NCBI RefSeq assembly: GCF_002868845.1
Contig: NZ_PKUB01000041.1
Coordinates: forward strand, 168,319-218,125
Length of the DNA: 49,807 bases
Reading direction: 5' to 3'
Origin: Desulfuromonas sp.
GTDB taxonomy: Bacteria; Desulfobacterota; Desulfuromonadia; Desulfuromonadales; BM501
In this document: in pieces, positions 1 through 1,930 of the stretch
Layout of the letters: every line of letters begins with the position of its first letter
How positions within the stretch are numbered: the first letter of the stretch is position 1
Position numbers and translations under genes: made by a program
The notes under the pieces: generated by a model
What the model was told of the DNA's origin: nothing
The model's database searches: none
What the model saw: the letters and a program-made list of their open reading frames with translations, nothing else

Positions 1-162
1 TGGGCGCCCCTTTCTTCTTGGGATTGATATGGCATTGGGAGTCAGGTTCTGGAATTCGGCCCGGTCTTAAAACCAGCACTGTGCTATTGGTGAAGCATCG
101 ACAAAAAGTGGCAAGGGAAGATCAGACCCCTCGCCCCCCTTCTTATTCAATTAACTGCGCTA

Positions 163-432
163 TTACCAACCAGATCCGTTCGGGCTACTTTCGGGGTCGT
201 AGATGCCGCCCAAAGTCTTGACTCCTGCCGATTTAAAGGCCATGACTCGGAACTGGTCACCGACATAACTCATGACCTTTGCGGCAGTTTCTCTCAGCAA
301 ATCTTCGTCTTTTGTCTTCAACGTGAATCCCTTGGCCTTAGCTTCGGCAACGACATCAGGCGAAAACAGGATTTCCGCTGCGAGTTTTTTGTCTTTACGC
401 ATGGTGTTGATAAGGTCCTTTAAATCTGCCAT
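163..432 (-). CDS. Nif11-like RiPP precursor peptide (89 aa, putative)
   Basis: Small acidic/basic protein lying 35 nt downstream of a radical SAM/SPASM gene on the same strand. The start at 432 is chosen because AAAGGAGG lies 6 nt upstream of the ATG; a longer frame from 507 would run back into the radical SAM gene. Residues 1-50 (MADLKDLINTMRKDKKLAAE..., then SPDVVAEAKAKGF and a TLKTKDEDLL stretch) resemble the Nif11-type leader of ribosomally made natural products, in which a helical N-terminus ends in an 'AKxxGF.LT.ED' motif. A double glycine at 75-76 (TLGG) would release a 13-residue C-terminal core, IYDPESSPNGSGW. The core has no Cys, so thioether (sactipeptide/ranthipeptide) chemistry is unlikely; Tyr, Trp, Asp and Asn are possible targets. 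No peptidase, transporter or second modifying enzyme is visible in the window. The family call and the processing site are inference. Confidence 0.6.
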   Translation of the reverse strand: MADLKDLINTMRKDKKLAAEILFSPDVVAEAKAKGFTLKTKDEDLLRETAAKVMSYVGDQFRVMAFKSAGVKTLGGIYDPESSPNGSGW

Positions 433-467
433 TTCTTCCTCCTTTATCGTTGGTGAGAAAAGAGCAC

Positions 468-1565
468 CTACCCGGTCGACACCATTGCCTCGCGAGCAAA
501 GGTACACAAGTCAAAGGGGTGCAATGTTTTCATTTGCAGATGCCTGATGCATGGCCTGCAGAGAGATTCGACATAACTGCATTGATCACATGGGGGAATT
601 GTTTTGTAGGGTCGACCGTTTGCTAACTGGTTCTCGTTTACGAAGGATTTGCTCGTCATGATCTGAGCTAATGTTTTCTTGGTCAGGTCGTTATTCTCAC
701 ATGGGTTTGTCCATACCTTACCCGAAGCCTCCATCTCATGAATCTGCTGGCAAGGGTACAAATGTCCATCTGATGAAAGATAGGCCTCATTTGGCAAAGG
801 ACAACCAAAATAACCCGAATCAAGAGGGAAACCCGTTCTGGTGGCGAGGTAGTCACGGGCCAGTGGCGGCAGACAGAAAAAATTGAGTTCCGCCTTAATG
901 TCTCCTCTTATTTTTCCCTCAAGACAGTGGCTAATCGATTCCACAATGTCTTTGGGAGCCACATAGAGATCGTCATAATGATCTAAAGCGCTCCCGACCC
1001 AAGCGACATCCTCAAACAGAATTTTATCGAAGCCTTCGTTTTCAAGAAACTGGCAAACTTCCACTAAATTCAAATAATTGACCTTTGAAATAATGAAATT
1101 GGCCAGTAGTTTTTTTTCAAACTTGCTCTCTACAAGAGCTTTTCTCAGGCCACGTATCGCTTTCATTATGGCGTCAAAAGAACCCGCTCCGTGGACAAAA
1201 TCGTGCATCTCCGCCTTATGTCCTGAAAAAGAGAACGTAATTGATGTCGGTTGGGGCAAGGAAACCAGCTTTTCAATGATTTTGGAGTTTAGCAGGGTAC
1301 CGTTGGTTGTCACAGTTGTGCACAGATTTAGATCGCTGAAAATCTGGAAAACCTCCAGAATGTCACTGCGTAGGAACGGTTCGCCCCCCAACAGTCCAAT
1401 TGCACCCACATTGGCATCGGATAATTTTTTCGCGACATCCCGTATGGCCCTTAACGAAAGATCTAAATATCCGCCCCGATTGATAGAACTCGCGTAGCAA
1501 TGTATGCAATCAAGGTTGCATTTTCGGGTAATATCCCAACGGATTACATCAACATCATTGAACAC
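468..1565 (-). CDS. Radical SAM/SPASM peptide-modifying enzyme (putative RiPP maturase)
   Basis: 365-residue radical SAM protein. The [4Fe-4S] cluster motif CX3CX2C is at residues 16-23 (RKCNLDCIHCY) and the SAM-binding GGEP motif at about 60-63. The C-terminal third has a SPASM-type cysteine array: a CX11GX4C element (from YFGC to YPC), then CX2CX6CX2C (PPCDQC...LCRPC), then a last Cys in FDLC, enough for two auxiliary clusters. Such enzymes make C-C, C-S or C-O bonds or epimerise residues in precursor peptides. The start is GTG, with AAGGA about 6 nt upstream. The gene directly after it encodes a Nif11-like small peptide, the expected partner. Both genes are visibly AT-richer than the following cluster, which suggests horizontal acquisition. 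The enzyme is clear; the substrate and reaction are inferred from adjacency. A non-RiPP role, for example as an anaerobic sulfatase-maturase-like enzyme, is less likely. Confidence 0.8.
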   Translation of the reverse strand: MFNDVDVIRWDITRKCNLDCIHCYASSINRGGYLDLSLRAIRDVAKKLSDANVGAIGLLGGEPFLRSDILEVFQIFSDLNLCTTVTTNGTLLNSKIIEKLVSLPQPTSITFSFSGHKAEMHDFVHGAGSFDAIMKAIRGLRKALVESKFEKKLLANFIISKVNYLNLVEVCQFLENEGFDKILFEDVAWVGSALDHYDDLYVAPKDIVESISHCLEGKIRGDIKAELNFFCLPPLARDYLATRTGFPLDSGYFGCPLPNEAYLSSDGHLYPCQQIHEMEASGKVWTNPCENNDLTKKTLAQIMTSKSFVNENQLANGRPYKTIPPCDQCSYVESLCRPCIRHLQMKTLHPFDLCTFAREAMVSTG

Positions 1566-1930
1566 GGCATTTCCTTGCTTATTAAAAGTAAGAGAGCTTT
1601 TGAAGATTACCCTCTTGCCACAAAGATATTTTAGATATTAAATCAAAACCTCACCATATTGGTCGCCAATCACATATGAATGGCTTCGTCTGGGTTACAT
1701 AGGTTCGCTTTTATCACCTTTTTACGAGGATGCAAGTTTAACAAAGGATGAGGGGTCAGATACTTTCTTAACAACTCCGTGTCAAGTTCCTGCGCGTTCA
1801 GCTGAACGAGTGGCCAGCAACCGACTGCCACCCGTTGCATCAAAAGGCTCGTTGTAGGTCATCACCGCCCCGAAGTTGCGATTTCATCGGAATGGGGTAT
1901 TAGTGATAGGGAACCCGGAATGGGGGCCCC
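1566..1930. other. AT-rich gene-free stretch between the RiPP locus and the lipid cluster
   Basis: About 365 bases with no convincing reading frame. The left two thirds are AT-rich like the radical SAM gene; the composition switches abruptly to the GC-rich style of the next cluster around 1840-1900. A GGGGTCAGATAC string at 1751-1762 resembles sequence often seen beside REP-associated transposase genes in this bacterial group, but no transposase frame remains. The promoter of the radical SAM gene should lie in the first 100 bases; I could not assign hexamers with confidence. Confidence 0.3.

Follow-up and report, generated by a model that had tools for sequence, protein, structure and literature searches.

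Two adjacent genes near the left end of the window (the whole 49,807-nucleotide stretch of Desulfuromonas sp. DNA that was analyzed) most likely form an orphan radical SAM peptide-modification pair, an arrangement that is itself of a known kind. The first encodes a radical SAM enzyme with a SPASM-like C-terminus, and the second encodes a cysteine-free peptide with a remote likeness to Nif11 leaders. We favor, with moderate confidence, a compact maturase–precursor pair in which the enzyme would act on its neighbor. An earlier note on this DNA had suggested that the enzyme modifies the adjoining peptide. The anatomy of the pair is still best read in this way, and the likeness to Nif11 is greater than that of shuffled sequences, although the action itself is something that we infer.

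Organization of the gene pair

Both open reading frames lie on the minus strand where the earlier note placed them: the SPASM-like radical SAM gene (468–1565; 365 amino acids, GTG start) and, 35 nt after its stop codon, the ATG of the 89-residue candidate precursor (163–432). An AAGGA ribosome-binding site precedes the enzyme (1572–1576, minus strand), and a search for promoter-like sites upstream of it on the same strand returned none. The strong ribosome site ascribed to the peptide is there, as AAGGAGG (438–444, minus strand) 5 nt before the ATG. The pattern AAGGAGGN{4,9}ATG occurs four times in the window against 0.90 expected, a count reached in none of 100 shuffles. This site, together with the tight same-strand spacing, argues for a maturase–precursor pair. 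Judged by the codon use of the enzyme, the peptide frame is the best of the six only marginally, which counts against that reading.

A terminator-like hairpin of nine pairs with a T-rich tail (110–135, minus strand) lies 3′ of the peptide gene, 27 bases past its stop codon. The surrounding stretch (98–162) folds with −22.1 kcal/mol (z −2.03), and 7 of 200 shuffles were at least as stable. These data suggest a likely terminator whose position fits a closed two-gene unit, and to that extent the hairpin supports the pair. The evidence is modest because terminator-like sites are hardly more common in positions 1–2000, both strands counted, than in shuffles (3 versus 2.1), and this frequency weighs on the opposite side.

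The enzyme

The enzyme is a member of the radical SAM superfamily: it carries the CxxxCxxC motif of the radical SAM cluster (Cys16, Cys20, and Cys23; 1497–1520, minus strand), and its Radical_SAM domain scores 72.7 bits against a Pfam cut-off of 29.5. Its C-terminal part (residues 255–354; 504–803, minus strand) has a SPASM-like set of cysteines at positions 255, 272, 289, 326, 329, 336, 339, and 354, arranged as C-x11-G-x4-C (the glycine being Gly267) and then C-x2-C-x6-C-x2-C-x14-C. The Pfam SPASM model matches residues 260–329 with 19.2 bits, slightly below its cut-off of 21.5. The core spacing of x2-x6-x2 is close to, and differs from, that of the C-x2-C-x5-C-x3-C motif, which PMC3023750 associates with peptide or protein modification. 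The nearness of the two cysteine sets favors a maturase.

The enzyme matched 77 NCBIfam families, and none of the best 25 by E-value, to which the following scores refer, exceeded its cut-off. NirJ1 came first (94.8 bits; cut-off 650), and the heme-pathway models NirJ1, NirJ, and AhbD all score above the peptide maturases, which counts against a peptide substrate. Enzymes of peptide systems are nevertheless among these weak matches and speak for one: ScmE (77.3 bits, cut-off 400, residues 10–280), PapB (63 bits, residues 11–279) and, over the N-terminal half only, WgkB (78 bits) and the mycofactocin enzyme MftC (69.6 bits, cut-off 265, residues 8–171). TIGR04103 scores 45.6 bits, below its cut-off of 725, and TIGR04064 is absent from the best 25 of the 77. 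A sequence search of the PDB returned 17 matches at E ≤ 1, the best being cytosylglucuronate decarboxylase (39.7 bits, residues 13–167), and PHROGs returned generic radical SAM matches. A single-sequence structure prediction was too poor for use (pLDDT 41.6). Judged by sequence, the best matches of the enzyme amount to generic radical SAM similarity.

The peptide

The GG at residues 75–76 and the 13-residue C-terminus described in the earlier note are both present, as is the complete lack of cysteine in the 89 residues. The putative leader comprises residues 1–76 (205–432, minus strand) and ends in the GG. The putative core, residues 77–89 (166–204, minus strand), is IYDPESSPNGSGW, with NGSGW as its last residues, if cleavage occurs after the GG.

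The Nif11-like character of the leader holds in part. An HMM search against leader models, which the earlier note had proposed, found a match to TIGR03798 with 18.6 bits (E 0.0017; 17.9 bits in the genome search), below the cut-off of 32.3. None of ten controls (nine shuffles and the reversed peptide) matched this family, and their best E-value to any family was 0.019. On an in-house profile of 18 Nif11 peptides that occur in the same phylum (from 20 loci, two left out), the peptide scored 10.8 bits with residues 1–41 aligned. This score was equaled by one of 5000 shuffles, about 172 of which received no score. The domain E-value among the 5001 sequences was 0.25, so the signal is weak by itself. 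What stands is a remote likeness, above shuffles, that spans residues 2–42 and ends there; it thus covers the first half of a Nif11 leader only. The second half is missing, in that the stretch preceding GG 75–76 could not be aligned with the LSEEDLDKVAGG-like stretch after which the leaders of the other peptides end in GG. The likeness above shuffles favors a precursor, while the score below the cut-off and the stop at residue 42 without the second half weigh against one. The earlier note had also placed Nif11 leaders in proteusin systems; proteusin leaders are known to be of the nitrile-hydratase-like class, not of the Nif11 class.

Other searches with the peptide gave little. Six PDB sequences matched at E ≤ 10, the best being a designed helical barrel (E 0.001, residues 40–70). 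E-values of this size can therefore stem from helix-like composition, which is a further point against the pair. Pfam gave a weak match to the BrnA antitoxin (E 0.065) and PHROGs an E-value of 0.043; the single-sequence structure prediction was again unusable (pLDDT 52.5).

Genomic context

The AT-rich patch noted around the pair is borne out by a GC content of 0.459 for positions 1–1900, compared with 0.615 over the remainder of the window. Upstream of the enzyme lies a 3′ remnant of an IS110-family transposase gene with a presumed insertion-sequence end (1752–1873, minus strand). Over 122 bases it shares 83% identity with the 3′ end of a longer copy, located on contig C40, for which Pfam matches to DEDD_Tnp_IS110 and Transposase_20 were obtained. 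The contig of the window (C41) has a single N immediately before the first base of the window, 162 bases downstream of the peptide stop codon. We take this N to be an assembly join, so the sequence truly beyond the left edge is uncertain. The AT-rich DNA that holds the pair is bounded by a transposase scar on one side and by the presumed assembly join on the other.

The right-hand neighbors encode a DUF2177 protein, a cyclopropane-synthase-type protein, an amine-oxidase-type flavoprotein, and a DUF1295 protein. The 3′ portion of a gene whose product has Mg_chelatase domains, and which we take to be comM-like, lies to the left of the N, and a stretch resembling the 5′ part of such a gene, recognized by a motif, is found at about L003:9015. 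Genes for BrxA, BrxB, and BrxC and a resolvase lie between the two parts. A BREX-bearing island (about L003:9015 to L002:17916) thus appears to split the comM-like gene.

The sequence GGGGTCWGAT occurs in inverted orientation at 121–130 and 1752–1761 (two copies in the window against 0.33 expected; two copies in 4 of 100 window shuffles) and at eight places in the genome, against none in the backward control. We considered whether the two copies might bound a small mobile element as its terminal inverted repeats and judged this unlikely: the left copy is inside the terminator-like hairpin, the right copy forms the end of the IS110-type remnant, and ends of this same IS110-type repeat make up two more of the eight places (on C40 and C33).

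The peptide might instead be a small helical partner or regulator, or a chance neighbor retained in such a mobile and scarred region, with the target of the enzyme elsewhere (for example, a heme intermediate or another protein). The insertion-sequence scar and the assembly join are consistent with this, as are the heme-pathway enzymes at the top of the NCBIfam matches, the Nif11 score below its cut-off, the weak BrnA match, and the resemblance to a designed helical protein. We nonetheless consider a peptide that is not the substrate unlikely: the family matches of the enzyme, heme-pathway models included, are all far below their cut-offs among the best 25 of 77, the Nif11 likeness exceeds that of shuffles, and the layout is operon-like with a terminator-like hairpin at its end.

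Leader recognition and export

The enzyme frame is open for 24 codons upstream of the GTG before a stop is reached. These codons are too few for a leader-binding domain of approximately 80 residues, so the enzyme cannot accommodate one. PqqD gave five matches at E ≤ 1 in the same genome; the two above the cut-off are on contigs C23 and C51, and neither is on the contig of the window. The missing domain and the location of these matches are points against a maturase–precursor pair. On C23, the PqqD-domain gene adjoins a second radical SAM gene (L079:4722–6195).

C39 peptidases are common cutters at GG leaders. The draft genome (99.84% estimated completeness) had no Peptidase_C39 match at E ≤ 0.01, whereas a control search found matches in 8 of 14 genomes; a C39 peptidase or peptidase-transporter, which an exported GG-leader peptide would call for, was thus not found there. 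No transporter was found in the five right-hand open reading frames scanned (up to 8.2 kb) or in the eleven scanned to the left (L002:7076–17916). The earlier claim that none is adjacent therefore agrees with the neighbors scanned, with the left side left uncertain by the assembly join. Its suggestion of remote export is weakened by the C39 result and may still apply, the exporter search having been one for Peptidase_C39. Given that the genome has no C39 match and the unit no export gene, the product is probably intracellular or trimmed by a housekeeping protease.

The most specific rival to the pair proposed here is a mycofactocin-like cofactor system, in which Trp89 would be oxidatively decarboxylated, and perhaps linked to a neighbor, to give an intracellular redox-active fragment that is not exported. 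The peptide does end in an aromatic residue (Trp89; tyrosine in mycofactocin), and the chemistry of MftC, an oxidative decarboxylation at that residue, is described in PMC8326336. No transporter or immunity gene was found among the neighbors scanned, as is said of mycofactocin in PMC3023750, and the lack of a C39 match and the MftC score over residues 8–171 are also in keeping with such a system. According to the same paper, a Cys-Gly-Val-Tyr tail is invariant across the mycofactocin family, and this tail is absent from the peptide. The unit (two open reading frames and a terminator) has no MftB-like gene, and the MftC score is far below the cut-off and confined to the N-terminal half. A variant of this kind is, in our view, improbable.

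A viperin-kind defense enzyme near the BREX island, making a chain-terminating nucleotide, is very improbable: the PADLOC pVip models match residues 7–164 with 63.2 and 47.7 bits, the weak PDB matches include viperin chains, and genes for BrxA, BrxB, and BrxC are present on the left, but those genes are across the assembly join, heme and peptide-maturase models do at least as well over the same core, the score on the curated viperin model is 51 bits (cut-off 180), and the enzyme has a Cys-rich SPASM-type C-terminal region, which viperins are not known to have.

Relatives of the pair

A search of 98 genomes, the source genome included, for the peptide at E ≤ 0.01 found its own copy only. Pattern searches yielded 391 stretches in genome_contigs and 45 in viral_contigs, none of them confirmed; being based on short peptide patterns, they reach close relatives only. 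The plasmids held no match at E ≤ 1, and phmmer found none at that limit among the open reading frames of the loci gathered, own copies excluded.

For the enzyme, only its own copy was recovered in 136 genomes of the order (E ≤ 1e-35) and in 395 of the phylum (E ≤ 1e-28); these thresholds are strict, and at most five candidates per genome were scored in the 395 genomes and at most seven in the 277 genomes of the class. At 1e-19, 34 of those 277, the source genome included, contained matches. Six proteins of the source genome matched the enzyme, itself included, the next being 31% identical over residues 8–152. Searches with short peptide patterns, which again reach close relatives only, yielded 20 stretches in genome_contigs and seven in viral_contigs, none of them confirmed, and plasmids gave no match at E ≤ 1e-15. 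A three-protein alignment found 17 loci in viral_contigs (best 32% over residues 12–92), and nine phage records matched the enzyme (best 24.9% identity over 96%, 85 bits).

The next best match in the class (34% identity, residues 11–206, 87.8 bits) is a ScmE-like protein at locus L050 (159.3 bits on the ScmE model, cut-off 400), in tandem with a ScmF-like protein (314.8 bits, cut-off 400). This tandem occurs in two genomes of one genus (L050:5912–8786 and L051:5739–8484) with two small genes. One, scanned in L050, is PqqD-like and scores below the cut-off. The other encodes a 55-residue, cysteine-containing candidate precursor (MKDYFSPNIN...CVHG; 49 of 55 residues alike), which had no NCBIfam match at E ≤ 0.001 in L050.

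Nif11 peptides above the cut-off were present in 13 of the 395 genomes drawn from the phylum. The 20 Nif11 loci gave no phmmer match to the peptide (E limit 10) or the enzyme (E limit 1e-3), and seven of them, from four genomes, have a CxxxCxxC-bearing open reading frame of more than 150 amino acids by pattern. In three genomes (L065, L066, and L067), Nif11-type peptides end in NPAKRQIWWV or NPAKRMIWWV with no GG near the end; that of L067 scores below the Nif11 cut-off.

No second example of the enzyme–peptide pair was found in the collections searched, and this counts against a maturase–precursor pair, although distant relatives may exist. No mention of the pair was found in the literature, which was covered in part and in which an unnamed pair cannot be sought by name.

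Proposed mechanism

In the maturase–precursor pair that we favor, the enzyme would bind directly to the Nif11-like N-terminal region of the peptide, which is probably helical. S-adenosylmethionine would be cleaved by the cluster held on Cys16, Cys20, and Cys23, a hydrogen atom would be taken from a residue in the cysteine-free tail, and auxiliary iron-sulfur clusters of the SPASM-like C-terminal part would finish the oxidation. An intramolecular cysteine thioether is impossible because the peptide has no cysteine. Most likely, the enzyme would form a C–C or C–O link or introduce an oxidative modification, with Tyr78, Asp79, and the C-terminal Trp89 as candidate positions. The modified peptide would probably stay in the cell, or a housekeeping protease would trim it.

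A new RiPP type, as the earlier note put it, is possible. We hold only tentatively, as a doubtful prospect, that the pair represents a RiPP family of its own, with no leader-binding domain, a half-Nif11 leader, a cysteine-free aromatic motif, and a product that is retained in the cell, possibly as a cofactor; the identification of that motif as Tyr-Asp-Pro or the C-terminal Trp belongs to this reading and is just as tentative. If the enzyme does modify the tail, radical SAM peptide enzymes would gain a cysteine-free substrate motif and a two-gene system small enough to reconstitute directly. The pair would also put to the test whether a leader-binding domain is dispensable when a SPASM-type enzyme reads a Nif11-like leader.

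Comparison with known systems

The pair shares its leader class with the Nif11-derived peptides that are served by lanthionine or azole machinery in PMC2887384. It differs from these in its cysteine-free tail, in the lack of a lanthionine or azole synthetase among the neighbors scanned, and in a genome without a C39 match. The SynChlorMet cassette is comparable in that the ScmE model covers residues 10–280 of the enzyme and the best genome match (L050) is ScmE-like, but here there is one enzyme, not two, the unit has no PqqD-like gene, and the peptide is cysteine-free, unlike the cysteine-containing 55-residue peptide of L050 and L051. With mycofactocin (MftA/MftC) the pair has in common a short peptide with an aromatic end, one SPASM-type enzyme, and no transporter seen; it differs in the tail, in the lack of MftB in the unit, and in an MftC score of 69.6 bits against the cut-off of 265.

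In some known systems, a radical SAM/SPASM protein is the sole candidate maturase of Nif11-leader peptides (TIGR04064 in PMC3023750; TIGR04103 in NCBIfam). Compared with these, the peptide here scores below the cut-off for Nif11 and has no second leader half, the enzyme reaches 45.6 bits of the 725 that TIGR04103 demands, and its cysteine spacing is x2-x6-x2, not x2-x5-x3. The two-part layout, a Nif11-type leader peptide beside a single radical SAM enzyme that has cysteines for auxiliary clusters, is the same.
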